From contig NZ_JAETXX010000014.1 of assembly GCF_021764745.1 (NCBI RefSeq), forward strand, positions 1 to 64,000: 64,000 bases of DNA, read 5' to 3'. Under the pieces are notes generated by a model that was given only the letters and a program-made list of their open reading frames with translations, was not told the origin of the DNA and ran no database searches. The translations under genes and the position numbers were made by a program. The DNA comes from Joostella atrarenae (GTDB lineage Bacteria > Bacteroidota > Bacteroidia > Flavobacteriales > Flavobacteriaceae). Of the stretch, positions 35,932 through 55,208 are shown piece by piece; the stretch's first letter is position 1; each line of letters begins with the position of its first letter.

Positions 35932-36774
35932 TTATCTGTATTTTTTTCGATAATTACCTGGAGAAGTGTTTTTTAACTCTTTAAATTTTCGAAAAAAGAA
36001 GGGAGGAGATTCAAAACCACAAGAGAAAGCTATTTGAGAAATAGGTTCTTCAGTGTGTATTAACATTCTAGTTGCAATATGAATTCGATATTCGGTTAAA
36101 AAGGTAAAAAAAGATCGCCCCATCATTTTATTAAAAAATCTAGAAAAAGCCTGTTCAGATAGACCAACAAGCTTACTAACCTCTTTTAGGTATATTTTTT
36201 CATTATAAGAACTAGCAATGAATTCATGAACTTTATTCATTCTGCTTGTATGTACAACAGATATATCTTTTGTGAAATTAGTATTGCAGATTTCTTTTTG
36301 AGGAATCGTTGTTAAACGATTTAATATTGTAAGAAGGCCAAGATATAAATCGCTGCCTTTTTTGGTAGGAAGTTTTTTTATTTCCTGAATAATATCTAGA
36401 CTATTTTTCTTGTCAAAAAGTATCCCTTTAGAAGCTTTATATAACATTTCGGACACATTATTCAGCTCAGGTATATTTTTAAATGCTATATCATCCCATT
36501 GAATAACGTAGGATTTTGATTTTGAATTAGGATCTAAGATATTTTTCCAACAATGAGGAACGTTTGATCGTATAAGAACCAGTTCCCCTGGTTCATAGGC
36601 TCCAGCAAAATCTCCAATAAATTTTGTACCATAACTACTTTCTATGTACGTAAGTTCATGCTGTGGATGAAAGTGCCATGGAGTCTCAAAATTATCTTCT
36701 TCGTACTCAAAAGCAATTATAGTTTGTTCCATTCCTAATTGGAGAGACTCTAATATTGGCTTCATAACTAACAA
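35932..36774 (-). CDS. AraC-family transcriptional regulator
   Basis: A 280-residue regulator with an N-terminal cupin sensor domain (about 15-95, with HFHPQHELTYIE and GELVLIRSNVPHCW) and a C-terminal AraC domain with two helix-turn-helix units (about 180-279, including LSEQAFSRFFNKMMG and IAFSCGFESPPFFFRKFKE). It is divergent from the P450 operon with a 159-bp gap, so it may control demethylation genes in response to a sugar. A direct repeat TAGTTTA at 36824-36830 and 36841-36847 in that gap is a candidate site. It is convergent with the preceding lipoprotein gene. Confidence 0.88.
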   Translation of the reverse strand: MLVMKPILESLQLGMEQTIIAFEYEEDNFETPWHFHPQHELTYIESSYGTKFIGDFAGAYEPGELVLIRSNVPHCWKNILDPNSKSKSYVIQWDDIAFKNIPELNNVSEMLYKASKGILFDKKNSLDIIQEIKKLPTKKGSDLYLGLLTILNRLTTIPQKEICNTNFTKDISVVHTSRMNKVHEFIASSYNEKIYLKEVSKLVGLSEQAFSRFFNKMMGRSFFTFLTEYRIHIATRMLIHTEEPISQIAFSCGFESPPFFFRKFKELKNTSPGNYRKKYR

Positions 36775-36933: not shown

Positions 36934-38091
36934 ATGTCATCAAGTGACTTTAAAGATCCCTTTGGGGAAGCCAGAGTACTAAAAGGTTATGGAGAAATGA
37001 ACGATCAGCATGATCCAGTGGTGATGCTATTAAGGCATAAAGATGTAAGAAAAGGAGCCCATGATTGGAAAACTTATAGTTCTCAAGCAGAACCAGGAAG
37101 AATAGTAGTTCCTTCTGAAGTTTCTATAAGAGACACTCGACAGATTCCTTTTGAAGTAGACCCGCCAGTGCATGGCGATTATAGGACGTTAGTAGCCCCT
37201 TGGTTTAAAAGACCTCTTGAAGATGAATATCAAAAAAGGTTAGAAGAGATTATAAGTGAAGCCTTAAAAGGTAGTCTTTCCAAAAAGAGCATAGATGTAG
37301 TAACTGAACTAGCATTACCAATTCAATCTAGAGCCTTGACTTTATTACTAAATGTTCCCTATTATGAAGCTGAAAAATGGATATCATGGGGAACTCATGT
37401 TTTTCGTAGTGAAGGAGAAGCTTTAGACAAAGAAAAAGCATTTATCCTATATGATTATATTGATGAAGAGATAGATAAAGCAATAAAAAATCCCAGCAAT
37501 GATTTATATTCTATGTTGTTAGCATCCGAAGTAAATGGGGAAAAGCTAACTAAAGAGGAGGTTAAGGGAGTTATGATTTTAACTTTTGCAGGAGGTAGAG
37601 ATACAGTTATTAATGCTATAACTAATACGATAGCATACTTTGCAGAGAATCCTTCATCATTATACCACCTTAAGGAAAATCCAGATATTATAAATAATGC
37701 AGTAGAAGAATTAGTACGCTATTTCTCACCATTAACACATATGGGAAGAGAAGTAACCAAAAATACCTCCGTTTGTGAGCATGCAATTAAAGCAAATAGC
37801 AGGATTTCATTATGTTGGGCTTCTGCTAATAGAGATGAGAATGTATTTGAAGATGCTAATACCGTTAAGTTAGATAGAAAGTTAAATCCACATGTAGGCT
37901 TTGGTTTTAGTCACCATAATTGCTTGGGTGCTACTCATGCTCGTCAAATATTAAGAACGTTACTTAAAGTTTTTTTACTAGAAGATGTGTCAATTCAGGT
38001 ATTAGATTCAGAAGAAAACATTGAACAGTTAGGAGATTTTAAAAGAAAAGTAGGTTTTAATAAGCTACAAGTGCAATTCAGTAAAAAATAA
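36934..38091 (+). CDS. Cytochrome P450, probable 6-O-methyl-D-galactose demethylase
   Basis: A 385-residue soluble bacterial P450. The I-helix motif reads TFAGGRDT (about 224-231), the ExxR motif EELVR (about 267-271), and the heme ligand is Cys330 in FGFSHHNCLG. The usual glycine four residues before Cys is Ser here. It is 7 bp upstream of a [2Fe-2S] ferredoxin and its reductase. A P450-ferredoxin-reductase trio in agar/porphyran loci of marine flavobacteria (Zobellia, Formosa) is known to oxidatively demethylate 6-O-methyl-D-galactose, giving D-galactose and formaldehyde. The match of context supports that role; the substrate is not shown by sequence alone. Confidence 0.85.
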   Translation: MSSSDFKDPFGEARVLKGYGEMNDQHDPVVMLLRHKDVRKGAHDWKTYSSQAEPGRIVVPSEVSIRDTRQIPFEVDPPVHGDYRTLVAPWFKRPLEDEYQKRLEEIISEALKGSLSKKSIDVVTELALPIQSRALTLLLNVPYYEAEKWISWGTHVFRSEGEALDKEKAFILYDYIDEEIDKAIKNPSNDLYSMLLASEVNGEKLTKEEVKGVMILTFAGGRDTVINAITNTIAYFAENPSSLYHLKENPDIINNAVEELVRYFSPLTHMGREVTKNTSVCEHAIKANSRISLCWASANRDENVFEDANTVKLDRKLNPHVGFGFSHHNCLGATHARQILRTLLKVFLLEDVSIQVLDSEENIEQLGDFKRKVGFNKLQVQFSKK

Positions 38092-38097
38092 TATAAA

Positions 38098-38406
38098 ATG
38101 GCAAAGGTTACATTTATAACGAGTGATAATAACACAATAACTTTAGAAGCAGAAAGTGGTTCTGTAATGGAGTTGGCAGTAAATAATAATATTAAAGGAA
38201 TTGATGGTGATTGCGGAGGTGTTTGTTCTTGCGCTACATGCCATGTACACGTGGACCCTATGTACTTTGATAAAATTGAAGAAGCTTCAGAAATAGAAAA
38301 AGATATGTTAGAATTAGATGATAACGTAAATCAGTATAGTCGATTGTCTTGTCAACTACAAATAAGTGAAGACTTGGATGGAGTTATTTTAACAGTTGCA
38401 AAATAA
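38098..38406 (+). CDS. [2Fe-2S] ferredoxin, electron donor to the P450
   Basis: A 102-residue putidaredoxin-type ferredoxin. Cluster cysteines are Cys39, Cys45 and Cys48 in GDCGGVCSCATC plus a fourth in RLSC (about residue 83). There is one extra cysteine at 43 inside the loop. It passes electrons from the reductase encoded just downstream to the P450 encoded just upstream. Confidence 0.9.
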   Translation: MAKVTFITSDNNTITLEAESGSVMELAVNNNIKGIDGDCGGVCSCATCHVHVDPMYFDKIEEASEIEKDMLELDDNVNQYSRLSCQLQISEDLDGVILTVAK

Positions 38407-38422
38407 ATTACACTCTCTTCGG

Positions 38423-39664
38423 ATGAAAAATAATAAAGAGGTTTGTATAATAATAGGAGCGAGTCACGCAGGTGTTAATTGTGCCTTTGCGTTGCGTAAG
38501 GAAGGTTGGCAAGGCGATATTATTTTATTAGATTCAGATCCAGAATTACCATATCATAGACCCCCATTATCAAAAACTTACCTAAATGATTCTGCAGCTA
38601 TTTTACAACCATTAAAATCATTGGAAAGCTATACTAAAGATGGAATAAAGTTAATTTTAGGGAAAGAAGTAACAGCTATTAACTCCAATATAAAGCAACT
38701 GAAATTAAATGACGGTTCTACTTTAAATTATGATAAATTAGTTCTCGCAACTGGAGCTAAACCAATTATACCACCGATAGAAGGATTGAGAAATTCTAAT
38801 ATGACTTTTACGCTAAGAACAGCAGCAGATATAACAGAAATAAAGAATACACTTTCTAAGGCTAAAAGAAAAAGAGTAGCAATAATAGGAGGCGGGTATA
38901 TTGGATTAGAGACTGCAGCTTCTCTAAATAAGATGGGAGCTGAGGTTACAATTTTGGAACGCGAATCTAGAATTTTAGCTAGAGTTACTTCTATATATAT
39001 TAGTAATTTCTTTCAAGAATTGCATAGGTCTAATAAGGTTGATATTCAGTTAGGAAAGAATGTTTCGATTGTAGAAAACAGCGATGACTCTATTTGCATT
39101 CATTGCAGTGATGCTACAAAGCTAGATGTAGATATTTTAATTCTGGGAGTAGGGGTAATACCTAATTGCGAAATAGCTAGCAAAGCAGGTTTGAATGTAA
39201 AGGATGGTATCTTGGTCGATGAGTTTACAAGAACATCTAATAGATATATTTATGCTATTGGAGATGTAAGTAATCATTATAATAAACATTACGGATATAA
39301 TATTCGTGTTGAGTCTGTTCAGAATGCAGTTGAACAGTCTAAAATAGCGGCAGCAAATATCACTGGAAAGAAAATAGAGTATAATACAGTGCCTTGGTTC
39401 TGGTCTGATCAATTCGATGTAAAGCTTCAAATAGTAGGATTAGCAAATGGATATACAGATATAGTTATTAGAGAAGAAAACCTTGAAAAGAATATAATAT
39501 CTGTTTGGTACTTTAATAAAGATATATTGTTAGCTGTTGATGCTATTAATAATGCAAAAGCATACGTTTTTGGGACTAAATTTATTAAAGACAATTTGGT
39601 GATTGATAAAAAAAAATTACGAGATATTTCTATACCAATTAATAAAGACTTGATTGTTGGTTAA
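38423..39664 (+). CDS. FAD-dependent ferredoxin reductase
   Basis: A 413-residue NAD(P)H:ferredoxin reductase of the putidaredoxin-reductase type. The FAD-binding fold reads CIIIGASHAGVNCAFALR, the NAD-binding fold IIGGGYIGLETAAS (about 155-168), and the second FAD motif YAIGDVSNHYN (about 276). The start is placed at the Met of MKNNKEVC at 38423. An earlier in-frame ATG at 38396 would overlap the ferredoxin gene and add nine non-family residues. It completes the three-part electron chain. A terminator follows at 39684-39715. Confidence 0.9.
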   Translation: MKNNKEVCIIIGASHAGVNCAFALRKEGWQGDIILLDSDPELPYHRPPLSKTYLNDSAAILQPLKSLESYTKDGIKLILGKEVTAINSNIKQLKLNDGSTLNYDKLVLATGAKPIIPPIEGLRNSNMTFTLRTAADITEIKNTLSKAKRKRVAIIGGGYIGLETAASLNKMGAEVTILERESRILARVTSIYISNFFQELHRSNKVDIQLGKNVSIVENSDDSICIHCSDATKLDVDILILGVGVIPNCEIASKAGLNVKDGILVDEFTRTSNRYIYAIGDVSNHYNKHYGYNIRVESVQNAVEQSKIAAANITGKKIEYNTVPWFWSDQFDVKLQIVGLANGYTDIVIREENLEKNIISVWYFNKDILLAVDAINNAKAYVFGTKFIKDNLVIDKKKLRDISIPINKDLIVG

Positions 39665-45576: not shown

Positions 45577-47307
45577 TTAATTATTAATTTGATCATTAGT
45601 TTGAAGTTCCTGTGAAGGAATTGGCAGGTAATTATGAGCTTCTGGAGTATAGTTATCAGCAGCTAAAAAGAAGTCTGGTCTAATACGTTCTTTAATAAAA
45701 AGTGGCGCTACACCATCTTCGGAAATTTCTAACTCTTCCAAATGATTTCCTCTCCATACTTCATCAGCTCTTAATTTTTGGAATACTTCATTGACTATTC
45801 CCCAACGTACTAGATCTTTCCATCGATGACCTTCATAACAAAGTTCCAATGGTCTTTCAACACGTTGAATATGTGTCATAACGTTATCTGCATTTGCTAC
45901 TACTAATGGTTGTGAACCATTCACTTGAACACTTATATGTAATTGTGGAAATTTACCTCCATTTTCATCCATATACTGTTGTAAAGTTTTTACACCAGCT
46001 CTACTTCTTACCATATCAATGTAGGTTATGGCGGTATTGTAATCTCCTGATGCATTTATAATAGCCTCGGCATACATCAGATAGACATCAGCCAAACGTA
46101 TATGCCTAAAATTAATACCAGATCTAGAGTTCGTGTCTTCTGATTTTAAATCATACCAATTAGTGAATTTTTTTATATAAGCACTTTGACCAAAGGCCCA
46201 ACCACCTTTTTCACCAATTTCTAAACCATAGTAAAGACCATCTCCATTGATAGGAACAATACTAGAATTCATTCTCTTTGAAAAAGTATTACCATCATTG
46301 ACACTATTAGTTGGATCAATTTCATCATTTACAAATAATTCATGCAAATAATAAGTAGGAATAAGGGTGTTATATCCACCAAAATTTAATTGCCCAAAAG
46401 CATTTGCCATTGTGGATGCTTCAGCACCAGTTTCGCTTGGAGTATCATCTACTGCAGCACCAGGAACACCAGGTCTTAATTCATCGGAATAGGCAACTTC
46501 AAATATAGATTCGCTATTAAATTCATTGAGATCTGTAAAGTTGTCCATAATATCTGGAGTTAATGCATAGATATTAGAATCTATTACCTCTTTAAATAGT
46601 GAAGCAGCTTGAGACCAATTTTTTGAGTATAAATAGTTCTTTGCTAATAAAGATGTTGCTGCACCCCAAGTTGCTCTTCCTTCATCTTCTGCACTCCATT
46701 CTAAAGGCAAATTATTTCTTGCGAATTCTAAATCAGGAATTATTACTTGGTTATTTACTTCTTCAATTGAAGAAAATGGTTGATTTAATTCTTCGTCAGT
46801 TTCCGCTACTTTAGTATGTATAATAGCACCATTATAGGTGTTAGCTATTTGGAAATAATAAAATGCTCTTAAAAACTTAGCTTGTGCTTCAATCTCTACT
46901 TTACTATTACCAGTAAATTTTGAGTCGTCTGCATCTTGAATGTATTGAATAACTTGATTTGCTCGAAACACACCAATGTATAGTTCATTCCATTTGTTTG
47001 TAACATAGTATGTAGCGTCGGTAAATGTAAGGTTTCTAAAAGCTGAAGGACGGTACCAAGATTCTGTCCCAGCGATGTCTCCCATAGCCATTTCATATTG
47101 TAATTCTCCACCGCTGACATTTTGGAATTGTAATGCTCCATAAGCAGCTGTTAATCCACTATTAAACTGTTTCTCAGTTTCCCAAAAGGTATCTGTCGTA
47201 ATAGCGTTTGGATTTTCAAGCTCTAAAAACTTATCTTCATCACAACTGCTAAAAGTTAGCAAAGTAATAATAGATAGTGCTGTTATATGTTTTCTATATA
47301 TTTTCAT
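45577..47307 (-). CDS. susD: SusD-like carbohydrate-binding lipoprotein
   Basis: A 576-residue lipoprotein with lipobox TFSSC followed by DEDKF. SusD traits: LELENPNAITTDTFWETEKQ at the start of the mature protein, EAQAKFLRAFYYFQIANTYN, FRHIRLADVYLMYAEAI and RVERPLELCYEGHRWKDLVRWG. It is 20 bp after the SusC at 47328-50414. It is longer than the partner of the first pair (519), and the loop inserts differ, consistent with another glycan. Confidence 0.95.
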   Translation of the reverse strand: MKIYRKHITALSIITLLTFSSCDEDKFLELENPNAITTDTFWETEKQFNSGLTAAYGALQFQNVSGGELQYEMAMGDIAGTESWYRPSAFRNLTFTDATYYVTNKWNELYIGVFRANQVIQYIQDADDSKFTGNSKVEIEAQAKFLRAFYYFQIANTYNGAIIHTKVAETDEELNQPFSSIEEVNNQVIIPDLEFARNNLPLEWSAEDEGRATWGAATSLLAKNYLYSKNWSQAASLFKEVIDSNIYALTPDIMDNFTDLNEFNSESIFEVAYSDELRPGVPGAAVDDTPSETGAEASTMANAFGQLNFGGYNTLIPTYYLHELFVNDEIDPTNSVNDGNTFSKRMNSSIVPINGDGLYYGLEIGEKGGWAFGQSAYIKKFTNWYDLKSEDTNSRSGINFRHIRLADVYLMYAEAIINASGDYNTAITYIDMVRSRAGVKTLQQYMDENGGKFPQLHISVQVNGSQPLVVANADNVMTHIQRVERPLELCYEGHRWKDLVRWGIVNEVFQKLRADEVWRGNHLEELEISEDGVAPLFIKERIRPDFFLAADNYTPEAHNYLPIPSQELQTNDQINN

Positions 47308-47327: not shown

Positions 47328-50300
47328 TTAAAAGTGTAATTGTACTCCAAGTAAAAATTGTCGTGCTACAGGATAATTTCCCCTATCAATTCCTCTTGTA
47401 AAAATTCCATCTCCACCTACCTCTGGATCGTATCCATTATAATTAGTGAAAGTAAATGGGTTTGTTGCAGAAATATATAGTCTAGCAGACTCCATACCCA
47501 AAGTAGGAATGTCTTTTATAGTATATCCTAAACTCATGTTTCTAATTCTTAAATAGGTACCATCTTCTAGAAAATAGTCTGATCTTGCTCTGACATTGTT
47601 ATGTAGCGCGTCTTCACGATCCGTAGGAACATCAGAATTTGGATTTTGCGGAGACCACATATAATATTGTTCTAGATGTCTTCCTTGAGTGTAAGCATAA
47701 TAGCGAGCACCATTATATATCTCGGCACCCTGAGAATAATAACTTTGTATGTAGAAATCGAAATTTTTATAGTCTACATTTAAGCTTAAACCAGCTTCAA
47801 ATTCTGCCTGTCCTGAACCAGAATAGACACGATCGTTATCATCGATAACATTATTTCCGTCTGTATCCTTATACATCATGTCCCCTAATTGTGCACTTGG
47901 ATTGATGGTTTTATATGCGTCTAATTGTTCTTGAGTTTTAATAACTCCATCATTCTGCACTAAGAAGAAAGAACCAGCTTCGTATCCTTCTGCTAAATAT
48001 GTTGTATAGTCAATATTAGGTCCTAATGAAACAGCAGGTCTACCATTGGCATAACCTCTTTCAATTCCATTTAAGTCCGTTACTTCATTTTCATTTTTAG
48101 TAAACGTTCCGCTTATAGTATAACCAAAATCTCTATTTTCAGATCTATGTTTATAGCTTAAAGCTAATTCAATTCCCTTATTAACCATATTACCAGCATT
48201 AACCACCTTTGTATCATAAACACCGTCTGCTCGAGGCTGGTATGTACCTGTAGATGCTGGAAGACGCTCTTCTAAGAGCATATCTTCTTTTAGGTTTTCA
48301 TATAAATCTAAAGTGAAATTAAATTTGTTTTTAAACATGGTTAGATCAAGTCCTATGTTTTTAGATACTGTAGTTTCCCATTTTATATCTGGATCTACAT
48401 ACGTACGTTGTGTTAATCCGTAGTTTAATTCTTCATTAGCTCCAAAAGGGTAATTAACACCGCTTTCGATAACTGGAATGTAGGAATATGAAGAAATGTT
48501 TTGGTTTCCTAACTCAGCCCAACTTAATCTTAGTTTTAGTTGATTAATGAAAGTTACATTTTCAAAAAATTTCTCTTCATGGATATTCCAACCAGCTGAA
48601 AATCCATAAAAATCTCCATATCGGTTACTTTCCGAAAATCTTGAAGAACCATCTCTTCTATAACTTGCAGATAATAAGTATTTTTCATCAAAATTATATT
48701 GAACTCTACCTAGTTTACCAGCTAATCTTCTTTCATCATTATAAGTGTTTGGTAAAATAGCTTCACTACCAGATCCTAATGTCTGAGATCCATTTCCAGA
48801 TTCTTCGCTATAAATAACACCAGTACCCAATGTTTTAGAAATAAACTTCTCGTATGAGAGCACAGCTAATAAATCTAAATTATGTTTCCCAAATGATTTT
48901 TTATAGGCTAATTGGTTTTCTATAACATCTCTTTCAGTCCAAATAAAGTCTTCGTTTAATATAGCTTGCTCTCTAGAAGCTGTAGGATTTAGTCCTTCTG
49001 TATCATATACTAAATATTGTGGTTGAAAAAATTTGCGACGATACTCCCAAGTATTTCTACCAAGATTAACTTTATAAGTAAACCCATCGAATATTTCATA
49101 TTGAAGGTTTGCTGCAATATTTACACTCTCGGTGTTGCGCTTATCAATATTTTCTAATTGTTGTGATAAGTAGCTATATAAAATGGCATTTCTTACGGGA
49201 ATCTCCACACCATTTCCACCAACAGTTTGTAGTCCATCCAATGGCGGTTGCCATGGTCTTTGTGCGATTGCATACTCATAAAGAGCCCATGGCTCTTGTT
49301 CTGTATTTTCGTCTGTATATCCAATAGTTGCAAAAGCTTTAAAACGTCCTTTTCTATATTCTCCTGTTAACCTCGTAGTAAGTCGGTTAAATCCTGAATT
49401 AATTAAAACTCCTTCTTGATCGAAGTAATTTGTATTAAAACTAAGCGAGAGGTTCTCACTTCCACCAGAAACTCCTAACGTGTAATTTCTTATGGTAGCT
49501 CCATCATTTTGGACACCATCAACAAAATCAGAATCATAATCTAATGCATTAGGATTAAAGAAAAATATTAATGGGTCTCTTCCTAAAGCTTCAAGCTTTA
49601 TTTCCTCCTCATACATTTGTTGTTGTGTATTCATTAAGGGAGTTCCAGAAGTGATATCTTGAATACTAGTATAAGTACTAAAGTCTACTTTAATGCTTCC
49701 TGCTTTCCCTTTTTTTGTAGTAATGAGCACAACACCATTAGATGCTCGCGTACCATAGATAGATGCAGCAGCTCCATCTTTTAAAATATCTATGGTTTGT
49801 ATTAATTCTGGAGAGATATTTGGATTTCCTTCATATGGAATCCCATCCACAACATATAATGGCCCTAATGCATTTGCACTTACAGAACCAAGCCCTCTAA
49901 TTTGTACATTAGCAGCTTCTCCAGGTCTACCACTACTAGCTTGAATATTTACCCCAGCCACTTGACCTTGTAATGCAGTACCTAGATCGGAGGTTGCTGT
50001 TTTTTGAATAATATCATCTCCAACACTAACAACAGCTCCAGTTACTTCTTTCTTTTTTTGAGTACCATAACCTACCACAACAACTTCCTCTAAATCTGAA
50101 GCATCTATTTCTAGTGATACATCAATAGTACTTTTACCATTAATAGGTATTTCTTGACTTTTAAATCCGATATAACTAAAAGTTAGTACATCATCTTTAG
50201 TTACAGTTAAACTATAGTTACCATCAAAGTCAGTTACGGTACCGTTAGTTGTTCCTTTTACCATGACATTCACTCCTCCTAATGGCATGTCATCTGTTTT

Positions 50301-50414
50301 AACATTTCCGTTAACCTTAATGCTTTGTGCATAGGTGAGGGTAACACTAAATAACAAAACCCATAAGAGTATTTGTGATTTAAGTTTCCTTTCTACAGGT
50401 AATTTAATTTTCAT
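47328..50414 (-). CDS. susC: SusC-like TonB-dependent oligosaccharide transporter
   Basis: A 1028-residue SusC-type transporter. Signal peptide ends near TYAQS, then the CarboxypepD-like domain (GGVNVMVKGTTNGTVTDFDG), the linker LEEVVVVGYGTQKKKEVTGA, a plug with QIRGLGSVSANALGPLYVVDG, and a barrel ending FLLGVQLHF. It heads the operon that also carries susD, the PKD lipoprotein, KDG kinase, KDPG aldolase, the TIM barrel and the SSS symporter. It probably imports agar/porphyran oligosaccharides. A TGTCTAGT box with a -7-like element lies upstream. Confidence 0.95.
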   Translation of the reverse strand: MKIKLPVERKLKSQILLWVLLFSVTLTYAQSIKVNGNVKTDDMPLGGVNVMVKGTTNGTVTDFDGNYSLTVTKDDVLTFSYIGFKSQEIPINGKSTIDVSLEIDASDLEEVVVVGYGTQKKKEVTGAVVSVGDDIIQKTATSDLGTALQGQVAGVNIQASSGRPGEAANVQIRGLGSVSANALGPLYVVDGIPYEGNPNISPELIQTIDILKDGAAASIYGTRASNGVVLITTKKGKAGSIKVDFSTYTSIQDITSGTPLMNTQQQMYEEEIKLEALGRDPLIFFFNPNALDYDSDFVDGVQNDGATIRNYTLGVSGGSENLSLSFNTNYFDQEGVLINSGFNRLTTRLTGEYRKGRFKAFATIGYTDENTEQEPWALYEYAIAQRPWQPPLDGLQTVGGNGVEIPVRNAILYSYLSQQLENIDKRNTESVNIAANLQYEIFDGFTYKVNLGRNTWEYRRKFFQPQYLVYDTEGLNPTASREQAILNEDFIWTERDVIENQLAYKKSFGKHNLDLLAVLSYEKFISKTLGTGVIYSEESGNGSQTLGSGSEAILPNTYNDERRLAGKLGRVQYNFDEKYLLSASYRRDGSSRFSESNRYGDFYGFSAGWNIHEEKFFENVTFINQLKLRLSWAELGNQNISSYSYIPVIESGVNYPFGANEELNYGLTQRTYVDPDIKWETTVSKNIGLDLTMFKNKFNFTLDLYENLKEDMLLEERLPASTGTYQPRADGVYDTKVVNAGNMVNKGIELALSYKHRSENRDFGYTISGTFTKNENEVTDLNGIERGYANGRPAVSLGPNIDYTTYLAEGYEAGSFFLVQNDGVIKTQEQLDAYKTINPSAQLGDMMYKDTDGNNVIDDNDRVYSGSGQAEFEAGLSLNVDYKNFDFYIQSYYSQGAEIYNGARYYAYTQGRHLEQYYMWSPQNPNSDVPTDREDALHNNVRARSDYFLEDGTYLRIRNMSLGYTIKDIPTLGMESARLYISATNPFTFTNYNGYDPEVGGDGIFTRGIDRGNYPVARQFLLGVQLHF

Positions 50415-50441
50415 AAATTGTTAGTTTTAGTTAATTACCTA

Positions 50442-50488
50442 CAAATGTTGTTAATATTACCTTAAACATGCTTTAAATTAACTAGACA
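50442..50488 (-). promoter_or_regulatory. TGTCTAGT box and -7-like element of the second susC
   Basis: On the minus strand TGTCTAGT (50488-50481, extending to TGTCTAGTTAAT) is followed after exactly 31 bases by AACATTTG (50449-50442), a 7 of 8 match to TAnnTTTG. The GH2 gene has the same box and the same 31-base spacing. Confidence 0.55.
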
Positions 50489-50563
50489 AGAACTGAACAA
50501 AACTGTACAAATTTTTAAAAACAACTAGATTTCAAATGAACAATAATTTAGCTTTATAATTAC

Positions 50564-50578
50564 AACTAACTGTTAGTT
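50564..50578. promoter_or_regulatory. CTAA-N3-TTAG dyad upstream of the second susC
   Basis: AACTAAC-T-GTTAGTT is a perfect 15-bp dyad. Its core CTAA-CTG-TTAG equals the core of the two dyads upstream of the GH2 gene. Confidence 0.45.
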
Positions 50579-50655
50579 AGTTTCTTGTGTTTATTTTGCG
50601 TAGGTTTTTGATTTTAAGTAACTATACTTTTTATTTAAAAGTGCTTGATTAGTAA

Positions 50656-52269
50656 TTAGAATTGATTGATAAAGTCTTCTAGATTATCCTCTCTATTTAA
50701 GTTCAATTTTTTTCTGAGTCTATATCTAGATGTGTGTACACTTTCTACAGAAATACCTAATAAACGAGCCATGTCTTTACTCGCAAAATTTAGACGAACC
50801 AATGCGCATATTTTTTGATCTGTTTGACTAAGTTGCGGAAACTTATCTTTTAAATTATCATAGAAACTTTGATTGATAGCAGTGAATCTAACTTCAAATT
50901 CAGACCAATTTTTTGAAGGACTTCCTTGAAATCTTTTTAAAGCTCGTAGTATAACTTTTTTGTTAAGAGCTTCATCTGTTCCTTCAATTTTCTTTTGGAT
51001 ACCTGCAATGAACTCATCTTTTTCTATGTGACGGAGGGAGGCTTGTGTGAGTTCTTTATTTTTTAATTCTAGTACTTCATTTTTTTTCTGAAGTTTTAAT
51101 TTTTGTTTTTCTGAGAGAATCCTTTTCTCATTTTTATGCTTAAGTTTTATTTGTCTTATTAAGATAAATCCATAGAAAATGATTGAAATAATTACGATTA
51201 CTAAAATGATAGATTTTAACAACCAAATTTTATCTTCTTGCTCGTAATTTTCTAAAAGTTGTGCATTTAGGGCATCTTCTTGCTTTTCTTTTTCAATTCT
51301 ATATTGATCTTTTATTTCTATAAGGTGTTTGCTATTTTCACTTTTTAATCCAAAAATCTTATTGTTTAATTCAGTTTCTTTATTTAAATATTGGAAAGCG
51401 ACTTTGTAATTTTCCTTTTGTAAATAAATATTCTTTAGTCCTTCGTAGGCTTTTAGCTGGTAATTTAAATGACTTTTGCTGTTTTCGGAGAGCTTTAGAG
51501 ATGATTTATATTCCTCTAAACTTAAATCGTATTTTTTCATCATTCTATATACGTCTCCTTTCAGCACATGTATTACTACAAGATAGGTCTTGGAATTTTT
51601 GGAGAAATACTTTTGGCAGCTATTTAACTTCGAAATGGATTCTTTAAAATTACCATTGGTAGCATCTAAAAAACCTTCTTCTGCTTTAATGTAATAGCTT
51701 TCATAATTGGGACTAATTCTATTTTTCCATATTCTGCAAGAATCTAAATAATTACTTGCTTGTTTATACTCTTTATTTACTCTATGTAAGTTGAGAATTG
51801 AAAAATAATCACTTAGTACATATTCTTTAACGTTTGGATTTTTTTGAATTAACTCTTTTCTAATTTTAATAGCTCTATTAAAGTATTCTAATGCTTTTTC
51901 GTCTCTCTTGTAGAAACTATAAAGCCATCCAAGTTCATTATAAATTTTTGCTATGGATGCGCTATCTTTAGTTTTATCTGCTAGGAGTAACGCTTTCCAG
52001 TAACCATCATAAGATTTACTATAATTTAAATTATGACTGTATAAAGTCGAAAGTTCCATTAATGCATTTATGGCACTAATAGTATCATTACTTTTTAAAT
52101 TTTCATTAATTTTCTTCTGAAATAAAACAGCCGCGCTATCTGGATTCGTATGGATTAACTTTCTCGCAAGAACCAATGTGGTATTTTCTTGTCTATTAGA
52201 TTGAGCTAGTATGTTGGTGCTTATCAGAATTAATACTAGAGATAGAATTACTTTTTTTAAATTATCCAT
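50656..52269 (-). CDS. TPR-containing transcriptional regulator with LuxR-type HTH
   Basis: A 537-residue protein with a signal peptide (about 1-22), five or more TPR-like helical repeats (about 30-330), one transmembrane helix (about 351-372), a coiled-coil stretch (about 375-420) and a LuxR/GerE helix-turn-helix at the C-terminus (about 475-530, with LPQLSQTDQKICALVRLNFASKD region and ARLLGISVESVHTSRYRLRKKL). It senses through its periplasmic TPR part and acts on DNA from the membrane. Regulators of this build sit beside susCD loci in flavobacteria. It lies between the two units that share TGTCTAGT and CTAA-N3-TTAG elements, and is therefore the best candidate to bind them. Confidence 0.87.
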   Translation of the reverse strand: MDNLKKVILSLVLILISTNILAQSNRQENTTLVLARKLIHTNPDSAAVLFQKKINENLKSNDTISAINALMELSTLYSHNLNYSKSYDGYWKALLLADKTKDSASIAKIYNELGWLYSFYKRDEKALEYFNRAIKIRKELIQKNPNVKEYVLSDYFSILNLHRVNKEYKQASNYLDSCRIWKNRISPNYESYYIKAEEGFLDATNGNFKESISKLNSCQKYFSKNSKTYLVVIHVLKGDVYRMMKKYDLSLEEYKSSLKLSENSKSHLNYQLKAYEGLKNIYLQKENYKVAFQYLNKETELNNKIFGLKSENSKHLIEIKDQYRIEKEKQEDALNAQLLENYEQEDKIWLLKSIILVIVIISIIFYGFILIRQIKLKHKNEKRILSEKQKLKLQKKNEVLELKNKELTQASLRHIEKDEFIAGIQKKIEGTDEALNKKVILRALKRFQGSPSKNWSEFEVRFTAINQSFYDNLKDKFPQLSQTDQKICALVRLNFASKDMARLLGISVESVHTSRYRLRKKLNLNREDNLEDFINQF

Positions 52270-52361
52270 TCGCTATATAGGTGTTTGTTTGTATGTATTC
52301 AATGGTTATGTGGGGACTATTTTATTTAGTTGATAATTTATTTATCAAATTTATATCGAGT

Positions 52362-52449
52362 TGCTAATTGTTAGCATTAAACATTGTTTTTCTTTTTCTG
52401 CCTACAAATAAAATAAATGTCTAGTTAATATCGATGCTAAACTTTAGCA
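52362..52449. promoter_or_regulatory. Paired TGCTAA-N3-TTAGCA operators
   Basis: TGCTAA-TTG-TTAGCA at 52362-52376 and TGCTAA-ACT-TTAGCA at 52435-52449 are 15-bp dyads 73 bp apart centre to centre, close to seven helical turns. The second extends to 17 bp (ATGCTAAA-C-TTTAGCAT at 52434-52450). Confidence 0.6.
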
Positions 52450-52507
52450 TGTCTAGTTTTTGTCTAGTAAATTTTAACAAAAATCATCGAGGTTTGATAG
52501 AAATTTG
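52418..52507 (+). promoter_or_regulatory. Three TGTCTAGT boxes and -7-like element of the GH2 operon
   Basis: TGTCTAGT at 52418-52425, 52450-52457 and 52461-52468. The last is 31 bases before GAAATTTG at 52500-52507 (7 of 8 match to TAnnTTTG), identical spacing to the second susC. The first copy shares the longer TGTCTAGTTAAT with the susC site. Confidence 0.55.
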
Positions 52508-52652: not shown

Positions 52653-55208
52653 ATGAAAAAGAATAATATATACATAGGAATTTTACTGTTTGTTGCGATT
52701 GTTGCTTTATCAATGATTCCGTGGAAATCAGAAAAAGATATCAAAACAAAAAAGTTAGACTTTAATTTAGGTTGGCAGTTTCATTTATCTAAAACAGATG
52801 TTGCAATTGCTGAAATTAAAGAAGATAGCTGGCAAAATATCCAATTACCACATGATTGGGTAATTAAAAAAGAATTTGACTCTAGCCTAGCTTATAATGC
52901 AAAGGCCACAGGTTATTTAGATGGAGAAGGTTATGGGTATTACAAAAAAATGTTCCCTACTGAAGTAACTAACAAAGAATCTTGTTTTATTCTTTTTGAT
53001 GGAATATACAATAATAGTGAGGTTTATATTAATGGTAAAAAGCTAGGTAGCCATCCATATGGTTACTCTCCATTTTATTATGATCTAACAAACTATCTTA
53101 AACCATTAGGCGCATCTAACACAATAGAAGTTAAAATTGATCATTCCCGTTTTGCAGATAGTAGGTGGTATACAGGAGCAGGCATATATAGAAATGTGAC
53201 ATTAATCAGAACTTCAAAATTACATGTGCCAGTATGGGGAGTAAATATTTTTACTCCATCAATAAGTAAAGACAGTGCCAAAGTTAATATAGAATTAGAG
53301 CTAGAAAACCATTTTCAAGAGGATAAAGCATTTAATCTTACTACTGTTATTTATGACAATCAGGATAATGAAGTCTCTAGAATTAGTGATGATAAGAATA
53401 TAGAATCCCAATCCAATCAAAAATTAATACAAGTAGTCAATATAGACAATCCTAATCTTTGGAATATTGAATCACCTCACCTTTATAAAGCTGTAACAAC
53501 TATTACTAGCGATGGCGAAGTATTAGATATTACTAAGGAAAAGTTCGGAATAAGATCAATCGACTTTGATGCTAAACGTGGTTTTTTTCTTAATGGAAAG
53601 AATATGAAAATAAAAGGCGTATGCCTTCATCACGATGGAGGTCTTGTTGGAGCTGCAGTTCCAGAAGGGGTTTGGAAGCGTAGATTGAAAATATTGAAGG
53701 AAGGTGGTTGCAATGCTATTCGTATTTCTCACAATCCAGCATCAAATGAATTTCTAAACCTATGTGATGAAATGGGATTTCTAGTTCAAGATGAGCTCTT
53801 TGATGAGTGGGATAATCCTAAGGATAAAAGGTTCAATCAAAATGAACAAAAAGTTGACTATATAACAAGAGGGTATACGGAACATTTCCAAGAATGGGCA
53901 GAAAAAGACCTAAAATCCATTATTAAAAGTCATAGAAATCATCCATCAATTATTCAATGGAGCATCGGTAATGAAATCGAGTGGACATATCCGCGGAATG
54001 CTGAAGCTACAGGTTTCTTTGGAAATATGAGTTGGAAAGGAAATTACTTTTGGTCGGAACCGCCATTTACAACAGAAAAAATTAAAAATAAATTAGACTC
54101 GCTACCACATGATAAATATGACATTGCAGAAACAGCAAATAAATTGTCTAAATGGGTAAAGGAACTTGATACAATGCGCCCTGTTACTGCAAATCTAATA
54201 CTGCCTTCAGCAAGTCATCTTTCTGGGTATACTGACGCTTTAGATGTTGTGGGTTATAGCTATCGTAGAGTTTTATATGATTATGGACATCTTAATTATC
54301 CTAATAAACCAATAATGGGTACTGAGAATTTAGGGCAATATCATGAATGGAAAGCCATTATGGATCGCCCATTTATTGCTGGTACTTTTTTATGGACCGG
54401 AATAGACTATATGGGAGAGATACGCGATCCTTGGCCAGTTAGAGTTCAACCTTCTGGATTATTAAATACAGCAGGTTTCCCTAGAGGGAGTTATTATATG
54501 TTCAAATCGCTTTGGACAGAAACACCTTCAATACATATTGCAACCCAAAACATAGAAAAATCATTGAATAAACTTAATGAGAAAGGGGAGATAGTTCCAA
54601 AAGATTCAGAAGCATGGAAGAAAGCATTATGGTCTTGGCAGGATGTTAATAGCCATTGGAATTATAGTAAAGATGAAATCATAAATGTTGAGTTGTATTC
54701 TAATTGTGAAGAAATTGAGCTTTTTCTAAATGATAAGAGTTTAGGTAAAAAACACCTTAAAAGTTTTGAAGACCATATCTATAAATGGGCGGTTCCATAT
54801 AAAAAAGGAACTCTAAAAGCAATAGGAACTAAGGAAGGAGAGGTTGTTAAAGAATCTATCACAACTGCATTAACTGCATCACAAATAAGTATCATGGTAG
54901 ATAAACAGGTTCTAGAATCAGATAATTATGATGTTGCTCATGTAGTAGCTCAGCTCTTAGATAAAAATGGTAATCCTGTTAAAGTTGATAATAGAGAATT
55001 GACATTTTCTGTAGAAGGGCCTGCAAAGATACTTGGTGTAGATAGCGGATGGATTAAAAGTGTGGAGAAATTCCAATCTAATAAAAGCACGACTTATGAG
55101 GGAAGAACACTTCTTATCATTCAAGCTCTAGATAAATCAGGTGAGATTATTATTACTGCGGAAGGAGATGGATTGAAGTCTAACCAAGAAATCATCAAAA
55201 TTAAATAA
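52653..55208 (+). CDS. GH2 beta-galactosidase
   Basis: An 851-residue exported GH2 enzyme with an N-terminal hydrophobic signal or anchor (about 6-24). Order of domains: sugar-binding jelly roll (about 45-200), Ig-like domain (about 210-305), TIM barrel (about 310-620) with acid/base Glu441 in IGNEIEW and probable nucleophile Glu558 in MGTENLG, then DUF4982-like and further Ig-like C-terminal domains. It removes terminal beta-D-galactose (or close relative) from galactan oligosaccharides. It is the first gene of a plus-strand operon with GH16 and anhydrogalactose enzymes. Specificity for 6-O-methyl-galactose or plain galactose is not visible from sequence. Confidence 0.9.

Follow-up and report, generated by a model that had tools for sequence, protein, structure and literature searches.

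Gene organization of the locus

The DNA analysed here, a stretch of 64,000 nucleotides that we call the window, lies on contig C6 of the 4.0 Mb genome of Joostella atrarenae (genome label G000). Two rows of genes diverge outward from a regulator gene on the minus strand (Table 1). According to a domain scan, the left row encodes SusC, SusD, a PKD protein, a PfkB kinase and a KDPG-type aldolase, while the right row begins with GH2, GH16, a zinc dehydrogenase, a short-chain dehydrogenase and an aldehyde dehydrogenase and continues with a sulfatase, an enolase-like enzyme and an aldose epimerase. The gene content of both rows would fit the use of agar and anhydrogalactose. The regulator gene directly adjoins susC, a position beside susC/susD that is a trait of SusR-like regulators. 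The other half of the locus contains a cytochrome P450, a 102-aa frame and a reductase in a row (36934-39664), which we take to be perhaps a demethylation system for the methylated galactose in porphyran, and an AraC-type regulator is also encoded in the window (35932-36774).

The 537-aa regulator contains a TPR_12 domain (Pfam, 1.1e-16). Its GerE match (0.0023, 18 bits) is below the Pfam cut-off of 23.5; GerE was matched weakly, at 0.01, in 13 of 20 family members, and a response regulator family with a LuxR/GerE-type HTH matches residues 474-530 at 5.9e-4. Helices were predicted at 482-492, 498-503 and 508-521 of the HTH region in a single structural model (mean pLDDT 73.6, 4 sequences) that was used for helix positions only, and the recognition helix LGISVESVHTSRYRLRKKL is well conserved among close homologues. 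Read by eye, the N-terminus is signal-like and a hydrophobic stretch lies near 347-371. Pfam searches at 1e-4 and 0.01 found no kinase, receiver or AraC domain, and an NCBIfam search returned only the BT3442 family, at 40.5 bits against a cut-off of 940.

Table 1. Positions of genes, boxes, -7 elements and dyads in the window
Feature	Position	Strand	Remarks
Regulator gene	50656-52269	-	TPR, putative transmembrane, HTH; 537 aa; likely binder
susC, first gene of left unit	47328-50414	-	TonB plug and CarboxypepD_reg domains; exceeds SusC cut-off
GH2 gene, first of right unit	52653-55208	+	Pfam GH2 domains
susD	45577-47307	-	5' part holds third dyad copy
susC box A AATCTAGT	50524-50531	-	Kept in 3/3 orthologous loci
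susC box B TGTTCAGT	50492-50499	-	Kept in 3/3 orthologous loci
susC box C TGTCTAGT	50481-50488	-	Kept in 3/3 orthologous loci
susC -7 element AACATTTG	50442-50449	-	Identical in 3/3 orthologous loci
GH2 box A TGTCTAGT	52418-52425	+	
GH2 box B TGTCTAGT	52450-52457	+	
GH2 box C TGTCTAGT	52461-52468	+	
GH2 -7 element GAAATTTG	52500-52507	+	5/6 letters of TAnnTTTG
Regulator gene perfect -7 TAAATTTG	52346-52353	-	
Dyad TGCTAATTGTTAGCA	52362-52376		8 bp before perfect -7 of regulator gene
Dyad TGCTAAACTTTAGCA	52435-52449		Abuts GH2 box B
Third dyad copy	47247-47261		In 5' part of susD; may be chance in coding sequence
Looser dyad AACTAACTGTTAGTT	50564-50578		AACTAA-N3-TTAGTT; upstream of susC box A

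Phased repeats upstream of susC and GH2

The original prediction had placed one box 31 bp before a -7 element in front of both susC and the GH2 operon, and its coordinates for boxes, -7 elements and dyads were all correct when checked again. The 31-base gap between box C and the -7 element is exact at both AACATTTG (susC) and GAAATTTG (GH2), and the 12-base identity that the promoters were said to share is TGTCTAGTTAAT, found at susC box C and GH2 box A. The single box itself gave way to a phased doublet or triplet: boxes A and B of susC, which had been overlooked, are spaced as in GH2, and the layout common to both promoters is, from start to start, A-32-B-11-C-39-(-7). The sigma-A promoters of Bacteroidetes have a TTG-like -33 element; none was seen by eye 19-21 bp before either -7 element. 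Both -7 elements agree in 5 of 6 letters with TAnnTTTG, the Bacteroidetes sigma-A -7 consensus, which spans -12 to -5 in the accessible part of the source (PMC9723704).

The window contains four copies of TGTCTAGT, all inside the two intergenic regions; by itself this count is weak, with 1.62 expected and at least four reached in 7 of 100 shuffles. Across the 4.0 Mb genome the combination TGTCTAGT-N34-ATTTG occurs only at the two promoters (reversed pattern 0), and the full triplet with up to 3 mismatches likewise has 2 places, with none for the reversed form. The 12-mer and the layout common to susC and GH2 could be taken to mean that the promoters are alike through duplication, or that susC or polysaccharide utilization locus (PUL) promoters carry such repeats in general, with no dedicated activator. 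However, the two promoters agree in their boxes and spacing and differ in the letters in between, and when 30 of the 38 own-genome SusC loci over the cut-off were scored, the upstream region of this susC reached 17 and the next best 13. The other 29 scored lack the doublet, for which reason a general susC promoter motif was rejected, and together with the evidence given below from GH2 paralogues and from genomes lacking the regulator this makes duplication or a general feature very improbable.

A second homologue of the regulator in the same genome (531 aa, 27% identity) had no doublet in the genome scan. Two further proteins of this genome, of 938 and 975 aa (G000:C56:84057 and G000:C1:640621), share the C-terminal HTH region of the regulator; the susC genes near them have upstream regions without the doublet (scores 12 and 11).

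Conservation in Galbibacter and Cellulophaga

Orthologues of the regulator were found in Galbibacter orientalis (locus L003, 72% identity), Cellulophaga omnivescoria (L004, 68%) and C. fucicola (L005, 68%). In their susC promoters boxes A and B are 32, 31 and 31 bp apart, respectively, boxes B and C 11 bp, and box C and the -7 element 39 bp, the latter being AACATTTG in all three as in the window. On the other side of the regulator the A-B distance of 32 and the B-C distance of 11 are also retained in all three loci. In Galbibacter this second promoter belongs to GH2 and has CAATTTTG at 39; the Cellulophaga loci have no GH2 beside the regulator, and their letters at 39 are a poor fit to a -7 element (4/6 and 3/6). 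The Cellulophaga triplets lie upstream of the regulator (5735-5785 in L004, 5747-5797 in L005), with the GH2 operon on another contig, and may be either a relic or a site with another use. Over the eight promoters of the four genomes, the B-C distance is 11 in every case, A-B is 32 in six and 31 in two, and six have a -7 element with 5 of 6 letters at 39 from box C. A triplet search in the three orthologue genomes gave four places (2, 1 and 1), the Cellulophaga susC promoters being missed because their A-B spacing is 31 bp. Comparison with related genomes, on which the original prediction had staked itself, therefore found the boxes conserved in all three orthologous loci found; the 4 Mb J. 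atrarenae genome has the layout at exactly two places, and Galbibacter and the two Cellulophaga have largely retained it.

Association of the doublet with TPR-HTH regulators

The core pattern that emerges is TGTNNAGT-N3-WGTNNAGT, about 39 bp before TAnnTTTG. A homologue of the regulator at 1e-40 or better is present in 30 of 397 genomes of the family, a list that is incomplete because three candidates were scored per genome; two other genomes of the same genus have no homologue at 1e-40. With one mismatch allowed, the doublet plus -7 element gave 101 matches in 62 of the 397 genomes, including 28 of the 30 with the regulator (G075 and G251 had none) and 34 of the 367 without it (Fisher 1.7e-23, kinship ignored). 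The regulator genomes contain 66 matches versus 6 for the reversed pattern, and the other 367 contain 35 versus 39. Genomes without the regulator are thus at the level of the reversed control, which argues against a general promoter feature. Among exact matches, 22 of 24 are inside the 30 regulator genomes; of the remaining two, one (G326, L184) adjoins a more distant TPR-HTH gene and one (G294, L185) comes from a 3.4 kb contig that has no TPR-HTH gene. In G314 and G381, both without the regulator, one-mismatch matches (position 8001 of L198 and of L199) are found 41-42 bp upstream of where similar genes of 290 aa start; this seems to be a related promoter that either matches by chance or is used by another factor.

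The 66 matches include 22 within 2 kb and 38 within 40 kb of a listed regulator. It could be argued that the boxes are real operators bound by another co-conserved agar/porphyran transcription factor rather than by the TPR-HTH protein: the link to the regulator is one of association, 21 of the 66 matches sit on contigs without a listed regulator, and the window itself encodes an AraC-type regulator. Such a factor is unlikely, however, as many genera have doublets that adjoin TPR-HTH genes and face outward from these, and two genomes below the 1e-40 cut-off, G326 and G198, also have exact or double matches beside more distant TPR-HTH genes.

The geometry was also recovered from the regulator side. 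In 59 regulator flanks, same-strand pairs of TGTNNAGT within 60 bp peak at a distance of 11 (23 of 57 pairs), followed by 32 and 22 with 5 each, and the reversed word gave 1 pair; offsets from doublet to -7 element included 39 (15 cases), 40 (6) and 8 (5). When 59 regulator loci were selected by protein, a score of at least 16 of 18 was reached on 34 flank-strands, belonging to 27 loci; in 21 loci no doublet scoring 15 or higher lay within 800 bp. The 86 loci scanned altogether include seven fetched for a pattern match (L176, L179, L184, L193, L195, L197 and L202); at least 16 is reached by 42 flank-strands in 34 loci with these seven and by 35 in 28 of 79 loci without them, and by no reversed control in any of the 86. 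Of the 42 doublets, 39 point away from the regulator gene, which is therefore probably not driven by the boxes.

The triplet was considered as the family-wide unit and rejected, as outside the window's clade box A is found at offset 32 in just 3 of 36 doublets; further boxes there occur at offsets 41 (4), 42 (3) and 43 (3), the mean being 0.47 per offset. In the 397 genomes the triplet search gave six places in five genomes, with no reversed hits among the matches listed; beyond the two of J. atrarenae, three of four are beside a homologue (G064 at 96 bp, G329 at 226 bp, G022 at 372 bp) and one (G326:C49) is not beside a listed one. The doublet is the common core across the family.

Twenty homologue loci from other families of the class were also scored, and L237 reached 16 and L238, L247 and L249 reached 15. 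Because the reversed control gives 2 at 15 or more in 86 loci, only L237 and L238 are worth noting. Both belong to genome G602, which has three full-length homologues (L237-L239), the closest being L237; doublet and homologues may point to transfer of the whole locus.

Target genes

Neighbourhoods holding 41 of the 101 matches were fetched, 40 in all, and 34 of these 41 lie outside reading frames of at least 100 aa. We scanned 20 of the 28 genes that follow matches in regulator genomes, excluding four whose match falls within a reading frame (L168, L171, L192 and L195, the last also beside a regulator), two others beside a regulator (L179 and L193), and L190 and L196. The 20 comprise four GH16 genes, three with porphyranase domains, three SusC-like genes and one each of GH2, sulfatase and fucosidase, so that 13 of the 20 genes after these remote matches serve glycan uptake or degradation; three have other domains and four no domain. 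One genome, G087, has eight doublet matches, four remote ones (L180-L183) preceding two porphyranase-domain and two GH16 genes, and its regulon would appear to be widely scattered.

GH2 genes were then picked by protein similarity alone, and 30 of the 48 matches listed were scored within 500 bp upstream; some of these promoters are the same as in the regulator-flank scan. At 57% identity or more, 16 of 18 score at least 14 of 18, the other two being G005 (12) and G004 (13). None of the 12 paralogues (at most 51% identity) reaches 14, and the reversed control for the 30 upstream regions reaches at most 13. The doublet thus goes with GH2 orthologues and not with paralogues, contrary to what a general promoter feature would give. 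In both Cellulophaga genomes, where GH2 is on a contig other than that of the regulator, TGTTCAGT-N3-TGTCTAGT lies 39 bp before CATATTTG, and these doublets are therefore the best sign of control in trans. The proposal that susC and GH2 are controlled together has accordingly been strengthened: the boxes are kept in three orthologous loci, they track the regulator family over 397 genomes, and GH2 orthologues are boxed even in the two genomes that have the regulator on another contig.

Palindromic dyads

Dyads with a CTAA core had been counted as part of the same signature. Their positions stand, but their membership is not supported: the intergenic regions of the three orthologous loci contain no dyad, and 58 other regulator flanks are not enriched (4 seen vs 2.85 in shuffles). 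Because they are missing from the orthologous loci, the dyads look like a separate, lineage-specific layer. We also considered mere chance. Across the window the short core CTAA-N3-TTAG occurs about as often as chance would give (5 seen vs 2.83 expected; at least 5 in 15 of 100 shuffles), but the 12-letter form TGCTAA-N3-TTAGCA is confined to this locus, with three places in the 4 Mb assembly (47247, 52362 and 52435), all in the window and spanning at most 5.2 kb, and none for the reversed word; chance was thus rejected. In the two window flanks WRCTAA-N3-TTAGYW has 4 copies versus 0.01 in shuffles, and none of 2000 shuffles reaches 4. Of 23 other regulator genomes, 4 have a single dyad copy, in no case within 200 kb of a listed regulator; these 23 genomes have the reversed word more often (10 places in 8).

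It is possible, though at somewhat less than an even chance, that a second regulator, one that binds palindromes and is most likely a repressor, uses the dyads as its operators; this would add to the main model and not replace it. Since dyads precede the -7 element of the regulator gene and abut GH2 box B, such a protein could hold both the regulator gene and GH2 down. In addition to the confinement of the 12-letter form and the enrichment in the window flanks, two copies are separated by 73 bp, or about seven turns, and the four copies elsewhere are far from listed regulators. On the other side stand the dyad-free orthologous loci and the unenriched flanks, the lack of an obvious palindrome-binding regulator in the subset of window proteins scanned, and the susD copy, which may be chance.

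A proposed mechanism for co-regulation

From the observed box geometry, genome uniqueness, conservation, association with the regulator family and kind of target gene, we infer binding, activation, a ligand and a membrane topology as follows. We consider it quite likely that the regulator is a membrane-anchored one-component activator of both units acting through the tandem repeats. Its periplasmic TPR part would sense an algal-galactan product and its cytoplasmic LuxR-like HTH would bind tandem direct repeats of TGTNNAGT. Box B at about -62/-55 and box C at about -51/-44, separated by one turn of the helix, would sit immediately before the -33 region, and box A at -94/-87, three turns further up, would be an extra site on the same helix face. 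Boxes close upstream of -33 on one face, with no TTG seen by eye, fit an activator. The bound regulator would bring RNA polymerase to promoters whose -7 is imperfect and that lack a clear -33. Transcription is predicted to start near 50437 (minus) and 52512 (plus), and both units, susC/susD as well as GH2/GH16/dehydrogenase, would thereby be turned on together. Against this activator count the poor -7 and missing GH2 at the Cellulophaga regulator-upstream triplets, the weak GerE match of the HTH, and the rarity of box A outside the window's clade. To these are added the 21 of 59 regulator loci lacking a nearby doublet, the absence of matches in G075 and G251, the low scores of the G005 and G004 GH2 orthologues, and the doublet-free 531-aa homologue.

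The original prediction's choice of the TPR/HTH protein as candidate regulator is well supported insofar as it is the likely binder, judging from sequence. The conserved operator grammar of the TPR-HTH activator family of flavobacterial galactan loci is real, and its binding by these proteins is predicted. Because the same repeats recur near related regulators and seaweed-sugar genes, the spaced repeats are probably a switch that turns on agar and porphyran digestion.

More tentatively, and with more doubt than confidence on our part, TPR-HTH activators may share one grammar across the red-algal galactan loci of the Flavobacteriaceae (TGTNNAGT twice, one turn apart, 39-40 bp before the -7 element), in which the central two letters form an address that co-varies with a recognition-helix residue; paralogues in one cell could then read different addresses. 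The residue, which follows SR in the helix, is Tyr516 in the window protein, and the box forms contrasted are TGTCTAGT and TGTCAAGT. Among 24 C boxes paired with Tyr, position 5 is T in 22 and G in 2; among 16 paired with His it is A in 9, T in 4 (L080, L067, L081 and L089, the exceptions) and C in 3. On box counts Fisher's test gives 2.2e-5 (T) and 4.2e-5 (A), with both boxes and regulators related to one another. Of six independent pairs on the tree, box letter A on average goes the same way in 3.4 and the other way in 0.0, a result that cannot reach significance; for "not T" the values are 2.6 and 0.5. The tree-corrected support is suggestive, a lead.

If the model is true, sequence can be used to predict agar and porphyran regulons, even for members distant from the regulator, and the question of how scattered promoters are reached by a protein bound to the membrane can be put to the test. 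A short searchable pattern ties a regulator family to target genes in about 30 marine genomes, and without prior gene choice it lands on porphyranases, GH16 and GH2 enzymes and SusC-type transporters.

Comparison with known systems

The family of the window regulator resembles LuxR/GerE proteins in its C-terminal HTH, with a weak GerE match in 13 of 20 members. It differs in that the window protein is below the GerE cut-off, is a probably membrane-anchored TPR protein and has direct repeats, whereas lux boxes are an inverted repeat. Among polysaccharide-locus regulators there is a likeness to SusR-like proteins as they appear in the accessible part of one study (PMC3878776). These are membrane regulators with a periplasmic sensor and a C-terminal HTH, a build that the window protein, with its TPR domain, HTH region and topology read by eye, may share; the genes lie beside susC/susD, and direct-repeat operators precede susC on both sides of the comparison. 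The predicted SusR-like motifs of Bacteroides have 67 or 77 bp between repeat centres on one helix face; here the repeats are 11 bp apart (plus 32/31), fixed 39 bp before the -7 element. HTCS motifs of Bacteroides, in the same part of that source, are likewise direct repeats upstream of susC-type operons, but with an average spacing of 21 bp and an AraC-type HTH (PMC3878776); at the Pfam thresholds given above, the window regulator showed no kinase, receiver or AraC domain. The accessible part of a study of the carrageenan locus of Zobellia describes CgrA as its positive regulator, again a red-algal galactan locus of a marine flavobacterium, and names no operator for it (PMC5698469). CgrA belongs to the AraC family, unlike the TPR-HTH regulator of the window. 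The operators of membrane-bound PUL regulators are poorly known, the Bacteroides predictions in the part of PMC3878776 accessible to us having other spacings, and no prior description of the doublet motif was found in the searchable open literature.
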